Source of the DNA: a virus
IMG/VR virus record: IMGVR_UViG_3300008012_000261
Coordinates: 1 to 20,465 of that record
Reading direction: 5' to 3' (one strand)
Length of the DNA stretch: 20,465 nucleotides
Below the pieces are notes generated by a model. It did not search any database and was not told the origin of the DNA. It was given only the letters and a program-made list of their open reading frames with translations. Position numbers and translations under genes: made by a program. Below are positions 11,639-20,465 of the stretch, in pieces. Every line of letters starts with the position of its first letter. The stretch's first letter is position 1.

Positions 11639-11891
11639 TGTTGAAAATACTACTACTTTTCCTTTCTTTATTTATAGTGTCCGTCACGTTAACGTGCCGC
11701 ACATCCTTAATCCACGCACGAAACATGTCTCCAGACTCGGTAATTGCGATGACGTAGTTGACACCAGCACGATGAATCGTGCCTTTCTCACCAGTAATAG
11801 ACGACATGATAACATCACCCTCCACAAAGACATCACCTTGTCTATGTTGCTGACGCAGTGCTTCTTCGCGCAGTGTCTTGAAATTTTTCAT
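11613..11891 (-). CDS. 92-aa small protein with SH3-like barrel character
   Basis: The protein starts MKNFKTLREEALRQQHRQGD and then has a beta-rich centre (GDVIMSSITGEKGTIHRAG, NYVIAITESGDMFRAWI) and a basic tail. The short strand-turn pattern suggests a KOW/SH3-like barrel; this is inferred from the sequence pattern only. I recall close relatives as hypothetical or structural proteins in T4-like cyanophages. ATG at 11891 overlaps the nucleotidyltransferase stop as ATGA. The last third contains a TATAAATA late motif in the coding sequence (T-I-N-K), so the 338-aa gene can be driven separately. Confidence 0.8.
   Translation of the reverse strand: MKNFKTLREEALRQQHRQGDVFVEGDVIMSSITGEKGTIHRAGVNYVIAITESGDMFRAWIKDVRHVNVTDTINKERKSSSIFNNGKTKTSQ
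11669..11676 (-). promoter_or_regulatory. T4 late promoter TATAAATA inside the 92-aa gene
   Basis: An exact TATAAATA lies in the coding sequence of the 92-aa gene, 30 nt upstream of ATG 11638 of the 338-aa modular gene. Spacing and direction fit a late promoter for that gene. A GAAAGG run follows, then the ATG after a further 20 nt or so. Confidence 0.6.
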
Positions 11892-12451
11892 TTATAGTTG
11901 TCTGGCAAATTACTCTTAATCTCTGCCATAAGTGCCCTACAATCCTTCTCCGATAACGCTTTAGGTATACCCTGGCGGAATGTTTTGAAGTCGTTGGCCG
12001 CAGCAGCACGTCTCATTTTAGTACCCGAGATAGCAAAAGTGTCTCCGTCAGCATCTCTGCTGCCCGAAGACTCAATGCGGATACTTCTAAAGGAGTAATC
12101 CTTACCATTATATTTATGGAGGAACTGCATGGCATTAACTCTATCAGAACCCACCAAGAATACTACATCATCATACCCAGCGAGCATGAGTTCTTGTAAG
12201 ATTGCAACAGGTTGTTTGGGTCCCGAAAATATTTTACCACGATGTTGCGGAAACATCAAGTTCATGTAGTGCAATTTACGATCAGGAGGTAAAGGGTTAT
12301 TACCTTTAGCATCAACAGACTGTGAGATGTAGATGCGATAGTCATGCTGACCAGCAGCACGTTTCACGCCATTGAAGTTATCTTCATGACCTGTTGTAGG
12401 TGGTTGGAACCTACCAAATGTGAAGTAACATACCTTTCCTTCTAACGCCAT
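11888..12451 (-). CDS. Cytidylyltransferase-superfamily nucleotidyltransferase (NMNAT-like)
   Basis: The 187-aa protein has GRFQPPTTGH at residues 13-22, the (H/T)xGH nucleotide-binding motif, and ISGTKMR at 141-147, the ISxTxxR motif that holds the triphosphate. Between them LVGSDR (99-104) matches the phosphate loop seen in NMN and other adenylyltransferases. Together these indicate a phosphotransfer of NMP from an NTP to a substrate, either NMN/nicotinate mononucleotide or a sugar or lipid phosphate. In the NAD case it could maintain the phage NAD pool. It overlaps the ligase-like gene by 10 nt and the 92-aa gene by 4 nt. The substrate cannot be told from sequence. Confidence 0.83.
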   Translation of the reverse strand: MALEGKVCYFTFGRFQPPTTGHEDNFNGVKRAAGQHDYRIYISQSVDAKGNNPLPPDRKLHYMNLMFPQHRGKIFSGPKQPVAILQELMLAGYDDVVFLVGSDRVNAMQFLHKYNGKDYSFRSIRIESSGSRDADGDTFAISGTKMRRAAAANDFKTFRQGIPKALSEKDCRALMAEIKSNLPDNYK

Positions 12452-13635
12452 TTCTTCTCGATAGTAAAATTATTGTACGCGAACTCAAGACGGTTAACAA
12501 ACTTGATCATACTACCGTCTTTATGCATAACATATCCTTCAGGACTGGTTACCTTATAACCTTTATCTGTTTGAACAAATGTCTTGAAAGTTTCAAGGTG
12601 ATCTAATTTATCTATAACCATTTGTTTGATAGCCTGCAACTCTTTATAGAGTGCAATCATCGTCTTGAAACTGTATACGTTATCTAATAGGTAATTTTCA
12701 CTCTGATATACCAAGTTTCTTTTCTTTGTAAGAGTAGCAACTGTCTTTATCTTGGACAGTTCCTTTGTCATCTTGGCGTGGTAGAAGTTTACCAGTTCAT
12801 TTATGGTCTCATCGACATTTGTGATGGCTCTCGCATTTTTAATTTCCGAATTAAAGAACTGCTTGAGGGAGGAAGATATGTGGAGTTTTTTCTCTCCTGT
12901 ATTGCCAAAATTATCCACCAACTGATCCAAAAAAGGACCAGCAAGAACACACATGCGTTCAATTTTCTGAACATGGTTATCAAAGGTACGGAGTTCTGCT
13001 GTAGAAAATCCCACTCTATCCATAGGTGTGTCGTTTTTTACAACCAATACGTTACTATTACCTTCTACTTTTGCACCTGCCATGGCCTGCATATTTTCTA
13101 ATGCAGTACCAGTGTAGTGAGTGTGAAATACTACCCCAATTTTAGCAGTGTTTGCAGCTTTGCCAATGGGATGATCAACTGGTATACCATATGTAATGGT
13201 ATTAGGGCGGAATGTATACAACTCCTCACCGTCTACAGTTTCTTTCTTTAAATCTGTGGTGAATAGCAAGTCTCCCTGCACCACACCTTTGATACCTAAT
13301 TGACTAAAATATTTTAGAGCAAACTTTAGTTTCTCTGCTAGATCTCCTTGATACCATTCATCAATACTCTCCTCGGTGAAGCAGATCTTTGGTTCTGTTT
13401 TGTTAAAAACTGACTTTGTTCCTACAAAGAACATCTCTGTCAGCGGTTCTACACCACAAACAACTGAAGGCGCACCATCCCACTTGGTCTGCATGAATCC
13501 GCTGCTCTCTTGCTTGCCCAGCATCTTGCGAAGTTCTTTCAAGAATGAAACTGCTGCCATACACCCCTCGGTGCCGTAGTTCAGCATCTCATCTTCCAAG
13601 TGTTCTAGGTGTTTGAGTTGTTTAATGTTTGCCAT
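12442..13635 (-). CDS. Ligase-like covalent nucleotidyltransferase
   Basis: The 397-aa protein has KWDGAPSVV at residues 51-59. This KxDG fits motif I of ATP-dependent DNA/RNA ligases and capping enzymes, where the Lys is adenylated. FFVGTKSVFNK at 69-79 is a candidate further nucleotide-binding segment, GVVQGDLLF (117-125) has the character of motif IV, and GVVFHTHYTG (167-176) may be a later motif. The C-terminal 200 residues are helical. RNA or DNA end joining, or modification of another molecule, is possible. I recall this family in T4-like marine phages as uncharacterised. Start TAATG overlaps the 433-aa gene by 1 nt. Confidence 0.75.
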   Translation of the reverse strand: MANIKQLKHLEHLEDEMLNYGTEGCMAAVSFLKELRKMLGKQESSGFMQTKWDGAPSVVCGVEPLTEMFFVGTKSVFNKTEPKICFTEESIDEWYQGDLAEKLKFALKYFSQLGIKGVVQGDLLFTTDLKKETVDGEELYTFRPNTITYGIPVDHPIGKAANTAKIGVVFHTHYTGTALENMQAMAGAKVEGNSNVLVVKNDTPMDRVGFSTAELRTFDNHVQKIERMCVLAGPFLDQLVDNFGNTGEKKLHISSSLKQFFNSEIKNARAITNVDETINELVNFYHAKMTKELSKIKTVATLTKKRNLVYQSENYLLDNVYSFKTMIALYKELQAIKQMVIDKLDHLETFKTFVQTDKGYKVTSPEGYVMHKDGSMIKFVNRLEFAYNNFTIEKKWR

Positions 13636-14936
13636 TACGCCAGCAGATAGTTTACCGTTCCTTGACTAGCATCAATGTTGCTGGTAGATGCCTTTGAACC
13701 AGAAAAACTCAAGTTCATCTGTGCAGCTTTACTCATCCTGAAATACACTTCTCCCTTCAAGAACTTACTATCATCCAAGTTTGCTTGATAGAAATCCTTT
13801 CCAGCGATCAATCTCTTTGCTTCGTTTAGAGATGTGGTATCTTTATTTAATCTGTCTGCTATACCCCTTGATAGAATAGCGGTCAGTGATTTACCGCCCT
13901 TTTTGCCGTTGGTGATCAGCACTTGAGCCGATGACTCTGTACCATCACCACCAGATTTGACATACTGCAGTGCCTTGAGCAGGACAGGAGCATGTTCAGC
14001 AGGTTTTCCTGCCTTAAATGCCTTGAAAACATCGTATGGTGCGTTGGTATCCACGCCTAGAATCTGCTTGATTCCATACTGATATACTATCTCCTTTCCC
14101 TTGCGCGTGGGGTCACCGCCGACCGCTTCCGCAGCTGACACAAGGTCTTTCAAAACACAGTCTGGCAGACTACTCTTGTACTTTATAGCAACTGGAATGA
14201 TGTTAGCCCAGACAGATGCCAGAGCACCTCTACCATACTTGGATGAGATGGGAACCTGGGTTCCATCTTCTGCTAAAAACAGCGAGTCAACACCAGCAAA
14301 CTGTGGATCATCAGGTACTAAAAAGCACTTATTATTTTTAGGAAGAATGTTTTGAGATAGGTGTCCCTGTGCTGCGTTGGACATACCAATATATCCCACC
14401 AACATCTCACCAACATAGGTTCCTAGTTGTTTTTTGATACCATCTACTACTGCTTTGGACCATGTGAAATTGTAGTTGCCATCCAGATTACTCATGAAGT
14501 AATCCACAACTTGTTCGGTTACATAGTCAGGCACCGATGGTTCATTTTCCAGTCCATGTATAACTGATGTAGCAATCTGTTCTGGTGTAGTAAAACATTT
14601 ACACTTTACATCAGGTATGCCCAGGATAGAGGGCACAATTTCATTGCTACCTTTTGATATAAGTTTCGTTGCTTCGATCTGCATCCTGACATTTGTCTTA
14701 CCAGGCTTGTCGATGCAGTCGATATGGAGTTCACTACTGTTATTACCCCAACTTATTTGCAGTTTGGTATTGTACTGGTCGCCGCCGAACACAGTGATAG
14801 GTGTTCCGTGCGCTAGTTTCACGCCAGAGGCAGTGGTATTTTTTGTTTCAGTTGCCTTACTGTTGGCCTTAACAAAAGTATCAACGGTCCTACCTTTGAA
14901 GTAGTGCTCCCATTTTACTCTACCAGTCTTTGCCAT
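13635..14936 (-). CDS. 433-aa protein, weak PD-(D/E)XK-like pattern
   Basis: No well-known family is recognised. The N-terminal 110 residues are rich in beta-type segments (GTPITVFGGDQYN, ELHIDCIDKPG). In the middle, GEMLVGYIG (about 176-184), GVDSLFLAEDG (215-225) and PISSKYGRG (229-237) resemble the Glu helix, Asp strand and xxK strand of a PD-(D/E)XK nuclease, with Ser replacing the usual Glu/Asp before the Lys. This is a hypothesis. The C-terminal part has a Gly/Lys-rich loop (NGKKGGKS) and basic helices. It begins the accessory operon and its stop overlaps the ligase-like gene by 1 nt. The start lies 8 nt after a GGGGAGG Shine-Dalgarno embedded in a hairpin. Confidence 0.8.
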   Translation of the reverse strand: MAKTGRVKWEHYFKGRTVDTFVKANSKATETKNTTASGVKLAHGTPITVFGGDQYNTKLQISWGNNSSELHIDCIDKPGKTNVRMQIEATKLISKGSNEIVPSILGIPDVKCKCFTTPEQIATSVIHGLENEPSVPDYVTEQVVDYFMSNLDGNYNFTWSKAVVDGIKKQLGTYVGEMLVGYIGMSNAAQGHLSQNILPKNNKCFLVPDDPQFAGVDSLFLAEDGTQVPISSKYGRGALASVWANIIPVAIKYKSSLPDCVLKDLVSAAEAVGGDPTRKGKEIVYQYGIKQILGVDTNAPYDVFKAFKAGKPAEHAPVLLKALQYVKSGGDGTESSAQVLITNGKKGGKSLTAILSRGIADRLNKDTTSLNEAKRLIAGKDFYQANLDDSKFLKGEVYFRMSKAAQMNLSFSGSKASTSNIDASQGTVNYLLA

Positions 14937-14967
14937 AAAAAAATCCTCCCCTATTATTTAGAGGAGG
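14937..14967 (-). terminator. Dual-use hairpin: terminator, late promoter loop and sequestered RBS
   Basis: Minus strand CCTCCTC (14967-14961), loop TAAATAATA, GGGGAGG (14951-14945), then A and seven Ts (14943-14937), directly before ATG 14936. The 7-bp stem (one G-U) plus T-run is an intrinsic terminator for the tRNA side. CTAAATA (14961-14955) fits a cyanophage late promoter, with the start near 14949. GGGGAGG is the Shine-Dalgarno of the 433-aa gene. Read-through RNA would hide the RBS; late RNA would lack the 5' arm. Confidence 0.72.
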
Positions 14968-14973
14968 TATAAA

Positions 14974-15058
14974 CGGAAGGGGTGGGATTCGAACCCACGG
15001 AAGCTCTCACTTCGCTAGTTTTCAAGACTAGAGCCTTAAACCACTCGACCACCCTTCC
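14974..15058 (-). tRNA. tRNA-Ser(UGA)
   Basis: An 85-nt cloverleaf reads on the minus strand. Acceptor GGAAGGG pairs with CCCTTCC; the D arm is GTCGAGTGGTTTAAGGC. The anticodon stem CTAGT/ACTAG closes the loop CTTGAAA, giving anticodon TGA (15024-15022). A long variable arm (class II, as in tRNA-Ser) precedes the T arm GTGGG-TTCGAAT-CCCAC. The discriminator is G, as in serine tRNAs. CCA is not encoded, so the host CCA-adding enzyme would be needed. It reads UCA and other UCN codons. Its 5' 31 nt overlap the end of a 69-aa ORF. Confidence 0.95.
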
Positions 15059-15303: not shown

Positions 15304-15708
15304 TTAACGATCGTCCTCCGCACGGTGCTCCGAGTAGTAGATGTCAAATGATCCGCCAGGATAACGCTTCTCAAGTTTCTTGATATTAGTCTCAATGACT
15401 TCCTCAAAGGACACGCCAAGTGCTTGAGTTGCTTGTGCTACGTACCAGAGAAGATCCCCCAACTCAATAATGAGATGCTCTCGATTATCGTCGTTCCAAG
15501 GCTTACCTTGGAAGACCATCTTCTTAATGATCTCAAGGAACTCACCACCTTCAGCATTAATACCAACACCAGCAGTGAGAAGTCGTTCAATATTGGCACC
15601 TTTAGAATCAAGTTCGACAAGGCGATCAGAAAGCGCAACAAAATCAGTAGAAGCGTCGGAGGTAACTGCATCTACAAACTCTTCGTAGCGAGAGAAATTA
15701 ATGGTCAT
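15304..15708 (-). CDS. mazG: MazG-type nucleotide pyrophosphohydrolase
   Basis: The 134-aa protein carries the MazG metal-binding pattern: E53-GG-E56 (in NAEGGEFLEI) and E82-LG-D85 (in IELGDLLWY), which bind Mg and the substrate nucleotide. Helices before and after fit an all-alpha NTP-PPase fold, and the length is typical of phage MazG. It hydrolyses nucleoside triphosphates, and in cyanophages has been linked to dNTP recycling and to (p)ppGpp-related effects on the host; the preferred substrate of this one is unknown. ATG at 15708 overlaps the gp41 stop by 4 nt (ATGA), so it is read with the helicase. Confidence 0.9.
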   Translation of the reverse strand: MTINFSRYEEFVDAVTSDASTDFVALSDRLVELDSKGANIERLLTAGVGINAEGGEFLEIIKKMVFQGKPWNDDNREHLIIELGDLLWYVAQATQALGVSFEEVIETNIKKLEKRYPGGSFDIYYSEHRAEDDR

Positions 15709-17096
15709 ATAACGAATTGGGAAAATTTATCGAGTCGTGATTGTTTGGTTGAGATCTCCTCAAGTGCTTCGTAGGTTTCATCTTCTGGTTCAGAAGTTAG
15801 GTCGCCTTCGGAGTCATCAACATTATACAGCTTCATCTTCGCCCTGTCAATACCCACAGTGAAGCGGCGATAATAGGCAGCATCGTTGTATCGGTTCTTG
15901 AGCTGCTTGATCATGATACGACCAGACTGCTCTAGCTCTTCCGTTGATATAAGAGCAAGCATAAGGTCAGCAGTAGCAGGCAAACCAAAACTTTCAGAAG
16001 TGTCAGTAAGGTCCACATCACTATTGCCATATCCACTACGAGTAGTTTGGGTAGCAGTAACAATAGGAAGATCATGCTCAACAGCAAGACCACGAAGTTC
16101 TTCAGCGATTGCCTTGACATAAGTATAGGAGTTCACAATGTGTCCTTTATATCGAGATGAAGCACAGATATTCAGATAGTCAACAAAAATAATGTTGGGT
16201 CTGAAGTCTTTTTTGAGAGAAAGATCATTCAAAAGAGATTTGAAGTGACCTGTGTGTGCTGCAGCAGTAGGATACTCTTTGATGATCAGCTTACCTTGAG
16301 ACTTCCTACCAATCTCATTGACACGGTTCTTGAAGATGTCTTCAGGAATAGAACCAATCTCCTGAATGTTGACGTTGAGAAGGTTAGCGTCAATACGTTC
16401 AGCAATCTTTTCTTCTGCCATCTCCATTGTGATATACAGCACATTATACCCAATGGATAGGCATGAAGCTGCCATGTGACACATGAACAAAGACTTACCA
16501 ACACCTGTACCAGCAAGAGCAACGTTGAGTGTCTTGTTAGGTAGACCACCTTTGGTTACCAGATTCAGTTTGTCAATATCAAACGGGATCTTGTGCTCCT
16601 CAAGGTGATAATAGTCGTAGCGTTCTGCTACATTTTGTACGTAGTCGTGTCCGATGTGTTCGTTGAAAGATACTGCCAGGGCCTCTTGGAGTATGCCTGG
16701 TATCGCGTCCTTTGATACTTCCTTATCGCCTCCTTCTGCGATCTTGATAGACCGTAAGATGGCGTTGTAGACTGCTCGTTCTTGGCACCATTTTTCTGTG
16801 GCGTCAGTGAGCCACTTGGTGTCAACCCATTCGTCTGTGAAGGCGTTGATCTGTTGAACAGACGTTTGATAAGTTTCTTCAGTGAGGTCATTTCTCTGTT
16901 GCAATTGTAAGATTAGCACTTCCTTTGTAGGGAACTTATCATATTTCCCAGCAAAGTCTTGAATCTCATCAAAGATAACCTGTTGATGCTGGTCCTGAAA
17001 GTATTCTTTCTTTAGGAAGGGAACTACCTTACGAAAGTAGTCTTCACTGCATATCAGATTTCTTAAGATGGTTTGCTCAAGACTCTCCGTCATCAT
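15705..17096 (-). CDS. 41: Replicative DNA helicase, T4 gp41-like
   Basis: The 463-aa DnaB/RecA-fold helicase unwinds the fork and works with gp61 primase. The N-terminal domain is helical (residues 1-130). Walker A is AGTGVGKS at 195-202, a helicase-type EMA motif lies at 225-227, Walker B is NIIFVDYLN at 301-309, and PIVTATQT carries a sensor-type Gln-Thr. A basic [16 protein letters not shown] follows. Length fits T4 gp41 (475 aa). The start (two ATGs in tandem, 17096) overlaps uvsX by 20 nt, and the end overlaps mazG by 4 nt. Confidence 0.95.
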
Positions 17097-18108
17097 CTGC
17101 TCCGTACAAAAATTCGCGTTGTGCTTGTTTATCTAGTTTGGCAAGAATCTCTTCAGTAAAGTATGATTCAGGGTCCTTTAGGATTGCCTTTGCATACACT
17201 TTCTTGCCGTCAATCTCGTAGCGACCAGCAGTGTTTTTCCACAGTCCTGCTCGCTCTCCTAATTCAAGGAGTCCATAGTGTCTCTCAAGTCCACGCTCAT
17301 CAAAGAACAGACGTGTCTCAATTTTTGATCCCTCACGGGTCAGACGAGACTTTTTAGCCTCGCATTTGACAATGTTTCCGACGAGATCCGTTCCATCTTT
17401 TTCCTTTCTCTTTCCGAGATATACGATTGTGCTAGCAGAATACTTGAGTCCACTGCCTCCCCCCATTTCTTTTGTAGGGACATAAGAACCGACGACATCA
17501 TAGGTGTGATTGGTAACTAACATAGGTATATTAGCCTTACCAAGTTTCAAAGTAAGGATTCTGAAACAAGACTTGATAAGTTGTGCCTTGGTCATGTCGC
17601 GAACGTTCTTGTCGTTCGACGCATCCTCAACCTCTTTGTTGGTGGCTAGCATACCAAGAGAGTCTAACACAAACATCAGTGGTTTGCGATCCTCTTTCGG
17701 TTGTTCCACATATTTGTCAATAATCCTGACCGCCTGGGTCCTGAACTCTTCCACTGTATTTACAGGAAAGATTACCATGCGCTTGGAGTCGATGCCACGA
17801 CTCTCAATCATCTGCTTACTAATGGCAGACTCGGTTTCAAAATATAATACGCCAGCATCAGGATCAAGATCAAGGAAATTACGAACGACAGAAAGACAAA
17901 AGAAAGTCTTTCCTGTGCCGCTCTCTCCTGCCAAAGCCGTAATCTTATTTGAGGGAATACCCCCAAACAGGCTTCCAGAAACCAGGGCATTAAAGATGTA
18001 ACTACCAGTATCAACGAAACTTTCAACGTCACCAGCAGCAATGCCATCAGATGCAAGAGAAGCAAACTCATTTTTGCTATCCTTAATTACTTGCGATAGA
18101 AAATCCAT
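17077..18108 (-). CDS. uvsX: UvsX RecA-like recombinase
   Basis: The 343-aa protein pairs homologous strands for recombination-dependent replication and repair. Walker A is GESGTGKT at 61-68. A Glu-containing FETES (90-94) serves the hydrolysis role, Walker B is LMFVLDS at 144-150, and loops for DNA binding ([22 protein letters not shown]) follow. A C-terminal acidic stretch DDDGES is like T4 UvsX, where it is thought to modulate filament and protein contacts. T4 UvsX is 391 aa, so this one is a little shorter at the C-terminus. It starts 1 nt after the polymerase stop and overlaps gp41 by 20 nt. Confidence 0.95.
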
Positions 18109-18109
18109 A

Positions 18110-20465
18110 TTAAAAGAATGATAGAAGTGATACTGTTTTCTTACTGCTCCAACCGATACAGTTTAACACATTCTTGAGAGGTTCATAGAACGACTTGTCG
18201 AACTGCAAGTTGTAATCAATGTATTTTTCTACATTGAACTCGGTAGGGATGCGACCCATGAATGAGATTACATTCTCACCAATGGGATTTGGTTCTTTCA
18301 AGTACAAGAACTTGATCTTTTCACCTTCCTGTATTTTAGCATACTTATGCTCTACCTTATGCTTTTTCACATAATGATTATAGAGCAAGGCACCACGAAC
18401 ATGGATAGGAGTTCCCTTGTTATAGATGTCAGTGTGACTACGATACTTGTCCAGATTGTTGACACCACGAGGGAAAGCAATGTCTGCATACTCTTGCTTG
18501 CGAGTGTCAGTCTTTACCTTGTCGATGTACTCAAGAACATCATCATTAGAACCATTGATGATAATCTTGTATGCCTCTTTGAGTTTGTTGCGGAAGAATG
18601 CAGGAGTGGATGAACGTGCCGTCTCCATGCCACAGATTTTCATCTTGGATTCGGAGTAACGAACACCCTCGCTGTCCCAGACGTTGAGGATATAGCGTTT
18701 CTTGGCAGTCCAGATGCCCTTGGAAGCAATGTTCTCCCGCTTCATCTTCATCTTCTGTTCGTATGCCCGAACATAAGTGGCGAGCTCTTGGTAAGAACTT
18801 TCAATAAACTTTTCAAATTCCACCTGACACACCTTGTCAAGGAACCCAACAATGATTTCATCATTTGTCTCTCGTCCCTTGAATACAGCCTCGACCAAAG
18901 GACCGAGGTTAAGATACATAGAATCGGTATCGCAAGCAATAACGTAATCAACATCATTAGTCTTCAAAATCTTGTTTAGATATGCATTGGTTTTATTACT
19001 GATCCAACGGATAGACAACTGACCTGACGTTGTAATCGCTTCTGCAATCTCCAGACGGTAGTATCGGAAGTGTTCGTTACCGATAGCACCATAAGCGGAG
19101 TTGAGTTGGATCTTCCTTGCCATCTGAATGTTGTTACAGCGAGAGATTTCTTTCTGCAACTCGACGGTAGGAGTATTCTCATACTGCTGCTTGGCAGCAA
19201 GCATCTTCTTCTTGTAGATGGTACGTTCTTGGTAGATTTTGTCCATCAATTCAGGCAAGAAACCACGAAATGTGGTGTCGTAGTATGTGCCGTTTGCACA
19301 CACAGTCTTGCCATCGAGATCACTCAAATCAATCTCCTGATTCAGGAGTCTTTCGACGTTAGCCGAAGGGTGCTTAACTGGTAACAACGTCTCTGGCGAG
19401 AGGTTGTATTGCATAATGAGGTGAGGGTATAGGGAGTTGAGGTCAAAACTGACCACCCAGTCATAAATCCCTGGAATAGGTTCTTTGACATACGCACCAG
19501 CATATTTGTTGTCCTTTGTGCTTTGATGTTTAGGAGGAATAGCAATGTTGCGACGTGCAAGATACACGTAGATGATGTTATCCCACATGCGGACCTGTGA
19601 ATACACGTCCTCAAAGTTTACCTTGGCATCATACGCCATGGTAATGGCAAGTTCAAGTAGCTTCATCTTGTCATCCAACCTGTCCACCAGGCGAACGTCA
19701 ATGATGTTATACTCTACAAACTTCTGCCAGTCATTATCATAGAACTCTTTGAAGGTATCATACTCACTGTGATCCAGTTTGTTCTGTCCCAGTTCTACAA
19801 AGGCAATGTGATCAAGACGATATGATTCCTGGTTGGTGTAAGTAAACTTACGATACAACTCAAGGTAATCAAGAGTAGCCACACCAGTAATGTCATAGGC
19901 AATGTTCTTCCTGCCTTTGATGTAGACTTCCCTGCAGAAAATATTCTTCCACGGAGATAGAAGTCTCGCCTCCTTCTCTCCTAGGATACGTTCAATGCGA
20001 CGGACGATATACGGAATATCGAACAACTGCACGTTCCATCCAGTGATAACGTCAGGGCAATTGCCAGACCACCAGTGAAGGAATGCCTTGAGCATACCCT
20101 CTTCCGTCTGGAAGTGCATGTAATGAACGTCCTTCTCGGTGTTCTTGAATGGACGTGTACCGAAGACAGAGATCTTACCAGTGTGGGAGTCTTTCAGCGA
20201 GATCAACAGGATCTCCTGGTCAGCCGACTCAATATCAGGGAATCCGTTCTCGGCACCTGTCTCAATATCAACAGTGAAGACACGAATCTGATTGATATCG
20301 TACTTCATCTCCTCTTCAGGATACTGATCAAAGATATATTGATTCAAGAAGCGTGTCTGTCCGCAGATCTCAAAGTCAGGGATCTCTTTATGTTCTTCAA
20401 TGAATTGCTTGGCATCTTTGATAGTGCCTTGCTGCACAGGGCGAACGTACTTACCGTCCAGTGTC
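18110..20465 (-). CDS. 43: DNA polymerase, family B, T4 gp43-like (5' end cut by window edge)
   Basis: The frame is open to position 20465 with no stop. An in-frame GTG at 20437 is not the true start, since codons [10 protein letters not shown] precede it. Exonuclease motifs are DIETGA (Exo I), [10 protein letters not shown] (Exo II) and [10 protein letters not shown] (Exo III). Polymerase motifs are [10 protein letters not shown] (A), [13 protein letters not shown] (B) and [10 protein letters not shown] (C), with TAKKRY downstream. The C-terminus ends in a short hydrophobic tail (KTVSLLSFF) that could contact the sliding clamp gp45. The product is the replicase with proofreading. About 785 residues are visible; most of the N-terminal 40-60 residues are missing. 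It ends 1 nt before uvsX. Confidence 0.96.

Follow-up and report, generated by a model that had tools for sequence, protein, structure and literature searches.

A conserved hairpin joining a late-promoter motif, a Shine-Dalgarno sequence and a putative terminator before an exchangeable gene in T4-like cyanophages

Can one short hairpin at the border of a phage replication operon end one transcript, start another and decide whether the gene behind it is translated? The question is raised by a 20,465-base virus record (the window, by which we mean this whole stretch of DNA) whose relatives are T4-like cyanophages. On its minus strand, genes for a gp43-like DNA polymerase (18110..20437, phrog_262), a UvsX-like recombinase (17077..18108, phrog_97), a gp41-like replicative helicase (15705..17096, phrog_19) and a MazG-like pyrophosphatase (15304..15708, phrog_229) are followed by a tRNA-Ser(TGA) (14974..15058) and by the element studied here, downstream of which lie, co-directional with the replication genes, gene A (13635..14936, 433 aa), gene B (12442..13635, 397 aa) and a cytidylyltransferase-like gene (11888..12451, phrog_3041, E 2.5e-69). 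Gene A has no database family and is replaced by other genes in relatives. Gene B, its fixed downstream neighbour, is a DUF6267 gene (PF19782, E 3.6e-127; phrog_455) whose product contains KWDG and, further on, GVVQGDLL, which, read by eye, we take to recall nucleotidyl-transferase or ligase motifs. An earlier first-pass annotation of the window had placed the element exactly between replication genes and an accessory operon, and these gene assignments bear this out.

As read from its letters, the element demonstrably places the Shine-Dalgarno (SD) sequence of gene A in its 3' arm, a late motif across its 5' arm and loop, and a T-run after the stem. The hairpin, CCTCCTCTA-AATAA-TAGGGGAGG (14945..14967, minus strand), has nine pairs and emerged both from fold prediction and from a terminator scan, in which it is among the best-paired hairpins listed for the window. 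Its 5' arm, CCTCCTCTA at 14967-14959, begins 6 nt beyond the tRNA and pairs with TAGGGGAGG at 14953-14945 around the loop AATAA (14958-14954); the stem is followed by one A (14944), seven Ts (14943-14937) and the ATG of gene A (14936). The predicted fold has a free energy of -13.8 kcal/mol (z -3.56), and none of 200 shuffled sequences folded as well. A G+C stem followed by a T-run is the make-up of an intrinsic terminator, with one A intervening in the window, and the T7 tract (14937..14943) would serve both as the putative terminator tail and as the spacer between SD and ATG. The SD, GGAGGA at 14944..14949, has its GGAGG inside the 3' arm and ends 7 nt before the ATG. The T4-type late-promoter motif, TCTAAATA, occupies 14955..14962, and the CTAAATA within it (14961-14955) straddles the inner 5' arm and the loop. 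The first-pass annotation had described a GC stem with seven Ts, a CTAAATA in the loop and a 3' arm acting as SD; the stem, the T-run and the SD were all recovered, while the A separates stem from T-run and the CTA of the motif belongs to the 5' arm.

In T4 the late box lies one helical turn upstream of the start, its first bases being numbered -13/-12 in the available part of PMC2988020. Applying the T4 spacing, by which the start lies 6 nt downstream of the box's last A, puts the motif at -13 to -6 and the predicted late start at 14949. Such a start, which agrees with the position near 14949 proposed earlier, would leave the entire 5' arm out of the RNA but keep GGAGG in it, and in fold predictions the mean unpaired probability of the SD is 0.001 in long RNA and 0.47 in the predicted late RNA.

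CTAAATA alone occurs four times in the window against 2.7 expected, which is not significant; the window has two hairpins that enclose [AC]TAAATA and are followed by a T-rich tail, where 60 shuffles gave a mean of 0.017. A chance origin of the element is ruled out by the shuffles and this combined-motif count, together with the control leaders and the single copy per genome given below. A sigma70 promoter scan of the window found no minus-strand site at the element, and in an Rfam search the tRNA alone passed its gathering score, the hairpin matching no curated family. A plasmid search gave one weak match (Spiroplasma, E 0.9), which was taken as chance. The second composite hairpin of the window, at 2232-2210 on the minus strand, has the late motif GCATCGGATAAATAGTTCGATGC inside and a T-rich tail, and has no SD; it precedes the ATG at 2197 and overlaps the stop of a RusA-like resolvase gene. 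Relatives keep its motif with quite different arms (S-CAM3, L233, is an example), the motif being present in 42 of 66 distinct relatives and enclosed by at least five pairs in 27 by a loose test. A further site, 10120-10086 on the minus strand, has an ordinary terminator hairpin and directly after it TATAAATA, before a head protein gene, terminator and late motif standing there in tandem and not fused.

A candidate T4-type late box resembling NATAAATA is present at the element and in relatives, and a late sigma factor is annotated in one of them, S-CAM3. Over 100 kb of S-CAM3, ATAAATA occurs 31 times in sense and once in antisense orientation, while the window's minor form, CTAAATA, is the rarer late form with 8 and 2; the corresponding counts are 6 and 11 for GTAAATA and 7 and 9 for TTAAATA. 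The motif lies at most 70 nt before 15 of 27 late genes and 3 of 23 others in S-CAM3, on late and early gene lists hand-picked from the annotation, and two of the three non-late genes that have it are gene A and a head protein gene.

How widely is the composite kept? In a hairpin-independent sample, drawn by a gene B search as the best 80 of 423 relatives and thus made up of near relatives, a complete gene A start was found at 72 loci (the eight without it were dropped), and the late motif precedes gene A at all 72, the SD is paired at 70, and the motif lies within the SD-pairing hairpin at 69. As controls we used 196 other SD-bearing leaders from the same loci, of which 42 have the late motif, 76 have a paired SD and none has the composite. 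The three exceptions are a locus with no SD hairpin (L177), one that has lost the arm (L184) and one whose SD lies in a different hairpin, which the late RNA would retain (L203). The composite pattern is also present exactly once in each of 11 complete named cyanophage genomes, from seven named genera and one unclassified phage (S-CAM3, ACG-2014e, i and j, S-CAM4, Sf-CH1b, Syn1, S-RIM44, S-H9-1, S-WAM2 and S-CAM1), in which a reversed control pattern does not occur. Scanning viral contigs for the hairpin pattern returned at least 120 stretches, and the start of gene B is visible on the same stretch at 75 of the 119 pattern-scan loci examined. Among relatives of the window's gene A itself, hairpin, CTAAATA and SD are kept at all 15 loci with a gene start, in two contexts, either after tRNA-Ser or after other genes without an adjoining tRNA; in S-CAM3 the element is kept after the tRNA with a different gene behind it. 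The idea that three functions meet in one element, as first annotated, is strengthened insofar as all the parts are conserved together in relatives, the functions themselves remaining putative. The tie to the tRNA gene, from which the RNA to be terminated had been supposed to arrive, proved not to be essential, and a tRNA-specific terminator is ruled out, since several relatives without a tRNA at the site keep the element.

At a greater distance the picture changes. None of ten more distant records examined has the composite, and eight of them keep only the late motif before gene A or B: as CTAAATA in syn9, P-HM2, S-RIM44 isolate Np and DLP6, and as ATAAATA in P-SSM3, Sf-CH1a, S-8S53 and, before gene B, S-CRM01. 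The other two, S-CAM9 and S-SKS1, have no late motif at the place. Neither SD nor hairpin is found before gene A in syn9, P-HM2 and P-SSM3, where the late motif is kept; S-8S53 has AATAAATA and then a different hairpin, without SD, and T8 directly before the ATG; and in S-CRM01 an annotated terminator stands by itself ahead of AATAAATA. From this comparison, the late motif is widespread, terminators at this border appear to have arisen repeatedly, and the fused form is confined to one group, so that the composite hairpin is, among the phages compared, an addition of one phage group.

Two isolates of one phage species, S-RIM44 (L144 and L227), differ: W2_10_0709 carries the hairpin together with a gene A of one family, and Np_42_0711 has no hairpin, no SD and a gene A start resembling another family. 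In another phage group, L035 (1177-1199, minus), L039 and L124 have in common a leader with a composite of the form CCTCC..CTAAATA..GGAGG and TTTTATG, and the gene that it precedes is HNH or endonuclease VII-like. The same design with CTTTTTAATG precedes a gene of 54-55 aa with no assigned family in L020, L028, L074 and L076; a PHROG search with the L028 protein gave no match.

Stem pairs were counted in register by script in 31 distinct elements, all taken from gene-B loci. The larger sets of 105 distinct leaders and 75 distinct elements mix gene-B loci with loci chosen by hairpin pattern; L110 and the three loci that account for the misses in 69 of 72 were excluded from the pair counts of the 75. 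The outer four pairs do not vary, the first four bases of the 5' arm are unchanged in all 31 elements, and the SD partner CCTC is invariant. Pair 4 is C-G in 28 elements, T-G in two and T-A in one, pair 5 is C-G in 22, T-G in six and mismatched in three, and the pairs beyond 5 vary together with the loop. A search for compensatory changes, suggested in the first-pass annotation, gave a divided answer, in that the stem is kept in relatives but only one full double change was found in its core (L189). Such scarcity is what one would expect of a stem whose 3' arm is held fixed by its role as SD. We know of no task for the 5' arm except pairing, and its invariance is therefore a stronger structural argument than compensation.

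The spacer between SD and ATG reaches a T fraction of at least 0.7 in 102 of the 105 distinct leaders, compared with 4 of 159 control genes, which supports the terminator, since a terminator needs a T-run and translation does not. The distance from TAAATA to GGAGG is at least 5 nt in all 75 distinct elements (pattern-chosen loci included), so that the predicted late start never removes the SD core; in all 105 leaders it lies 0 to 4 nt ahead of the first G of GGAGG. Across these leaders the median unpaired probability of the SD is 0.000 in read-through RNA and 0.43 in predicted late RNA, and the SD is the freer in the latter in 103 of 105. The release is only partial, the unpaired probability in predicted late RNA exceeding 0.5 for 42 of the 105.

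The first reading of the window could not reveal that a constant switch is followed by different genes in different phages. Across 163 loci we found 122 distinct gene A proteins, which form eight single-linkage families and 17 clusters at 40% identity. The 72 gene-B loci hold 11 of these clusters, and every one of the 11 has at least one locus with the hairpin. One identical 43-nt leader serves four gene A clusters (L156; L161; L154 and L133; L188 and L187), and other identical leaders serve three or two. Between the window and S-CAM3 the leader is 93% identical, gene B 80% and gene A 62%, the last being background, and the DNA match stops at 14928, nine bases into gene A. On a gene B tree of 118 sequences, the gene A cluster, with 17 states, changes 29 times against a shuffled mean of 80.6, indicating frequent exchange and yet that A and B are not independent; the short or long form of the hairpin changes 8 times against a shuffled mean of 29.7. 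Both hairpin forms are found with 8 of the 17 gene A clusters. At the level of sequence comparison, then, the composite is shown to stay at one genome address while the gene behind it is exchanged.

Several of the families in this slot look like restriction-enzyme-type nucleases. Pfam returned no family above its cut-off for gene A proteins, and four gene A clusters match a PADLOC type II restriction-enzyme profile with E 3e-5 to 3e-11. The model of another family, F0 (28 sequences, pLDDT 76), gave no Foldseek match at E <= 0.001; a second-look structural aligner placed restriction enzymes in its first four rows (HinP1I with Z 9.1 over 211 residues, HinP1I again with 8.0, MspI with 7.1 and SwaI with 5.5), values to be read with the aligner's own note that Z near 8 can be unspecific. 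The F0 model thus has the predicted core fold of a restriction endonuclease of the PD-(D/E)XK type. A conserved D and S-x-K are common to F0, F1, F2 and F3, and F4 shows such a pair among others. The window's own gene A has a conserved D217 and S231-S-K233, and this D...SxK pattern is the one lead by which a nuclease is suggested there; its model (pLDDT 45) was too poor for a structure search, and a sequence search of solved structures with the gene A proteins of the window and of S-CAM3 gave nothing convincing.

The mechanism to which these features point is known from T4. For T4 genes e, soc, 49 and I-TevI, for segB and for Aeh1 mobE, the reviews PMC3014915 and PMC2988022 describe a long RNA that hides the SD and a late RNA that starts inside the structure and frees it, and for I-TevI, I-TevII, I-TevIII, segB and Aeh1 mobE PMC2988022 describes an SD masked until a late promoter yields a shorter RNA; in these sources such hairpin-switched genes are late genes inside early or middle transcripts. 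We folded the T4 e leader: its arms enclose TATAAATA, its 3' arm contains AGGAGG, TATT stands where the cyanophage leader has the T-run, and the predicted unpaired probability of the SD was 0.001 in the long and about 0.3 in the late RNA. The cyanophage element resembles it in having the late promoter between the arms and the SD in the 3' arm, hidden in long RNA and predicted to be freer in late RNA, but has a T-run before the ATG and another gene behind it; and while the T4 e leader is, as far as seen, not a gene-exchange site, the cyanophage element is. By prediction it behaves as a T4-type masking hairpin, the SD being paired in RNA started upstream and the late RNA losing the 5' arm and keeping the SD. 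The homing-endonuclease hairpins of T4 and Aeh1 mobE are similar in that their nuclease genes lie in early or middle units with the SD masked until late; there, however, mobility belongs to the gene itself, which lies in an intron or between genes, whereas the cyanophage element is one fixed switch used by different gene families, several of them restriction-enzyme-like. A literature search that covered few subscription journals found no description of the cyanophage element. The novelty lies in the putative terminator built into the hairpin and in a switch that stays constant ahead of a gene that is exchanged.

The reading we consider probable is that of an early/late switch of T4 type with a terminator built into it. 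RNA arriving from the replication genes would form the hairpin, and would either terminate in the T-run or read through with the SD of gene A masked. Late in infection a gp55-type RNA polymerase would start near 14949, and the resulting RNA, without the 5' arm, would have neither terminator nor mask, so that gene A could be translated behind a leader of some 13 nt. The purpose may be to keep a gene product that is harmful early silent until late. This reading draws on the anatomy and fold, the conservation, the late-start geometry, the accessibility of the SD and the T-run, as well as on the sense-strand T-G pairs, the bias of the late motif, the gene exchange, the nuclease-like genes and the design of T4 e. 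Counting against it are the loss of the hairpin in L177 and L184, the different hairpin of L203, the ten distant records that lack the composite, the partial release of the SD, the single double change in the stem core, the A between stem and T-run in the window, and CTAAATA being the rarer late form in S-CAM3.

The terminator could be the superfluous part, the element being a translation switch that masks the SD as in T4 gene e, with weak or absent termination in the T-run. The nearly identical T4 e leader, which manages with TATT, and the A between stem and T-run in the window speak for this, but the T-rich spacers of 102 of 105 leaders against 4 of 159 control genes do not, nor do the SD-free hairpin with T8 of S-8S53 and the annotated terminator of S-CRM01 at the same junction, and we think it unlikely. 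Conversely, a terminator and a late promoter may have been fused and the pairing of the SD be a by-product without effect, as cyanophage genes can manage without an SD. Although syn9, P-HM2 and P-SSM3 keep the late motif with neither SD nor hairpin before gene A, and the window hairpin at 2232-2210 combines late motif and T-rich tail without an SD, the outer 3' arm of the element is in every case the SD, with the same partner, CCTC, in all 31 elements, a sequence for which a terminator has no need; this explanation strikes us as quite unlikely.

A recombination cassette, kept as a repeat since it enables exchange of gene A, would account for the identity of a 43-nt leader that precedes as many as four gene A clusters and for the 29 cluster changes on the gene B tree. 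The model for it would be the PeSL cassettes of RB49-type phages, which have early promoters and occur densely (Arbiol 2010 and Comeau 2014, as cited in the available part of PMC4503421), and which, as there described, likewise tie a promoter and a terminator stem-loop to gene exchange. The cyanophage element, unlike PeSLs as far as that source presents them, has a late-type motif between its arms, a single copy in 11 of 11 genomes and no sigma70 site listed, and identity with a PeSL is ruled out by the late-type motif and the one copy per genome. The same two properties make a recombination cassette very improbable, as do the many arm variants that keep pairing and the fact that exchange could equally use homology in the flanking genes. 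That the inverted repeat around the promoter motif is a palindromic DNA site for a protein, and not an RNA structure, we regard as extremely improbable: the T-G combinations (eight cells at pairs 4 and 5 among the 31 elements) break DNA symmetry and keep RNA pairing, and since they pair only in sense RNA they place the structure there, and the T-run stands on one side only.

If the element is the early/late switch that we favour, a switch of the T4 gene e type appears in cyanophages with a terminator added within the same 30 nt, and it is tied to a hypervariable gene slot in which the products of several families are restriction-enzyme-like. More tentatively, marine T4-like cyanophages may possess at the replication-operon border a fixed hairpin that acts as a "regulatory socket", behind which unrelated restriction-enzyme-like nuclease genes swap. 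It could be a safe harbour for early-lethal genes and their repeated exchange, because the switch would silence whatever stands behind it until late. In its available part, a review of T4-like phages (PMC2988022) leaves open why such switches precede late genes and whether their products are harmful early; through the cyanophage element this question would become testable, and the sequence of the element would also help to locate exchanged nuclease-like genes annotated as hypothetical.
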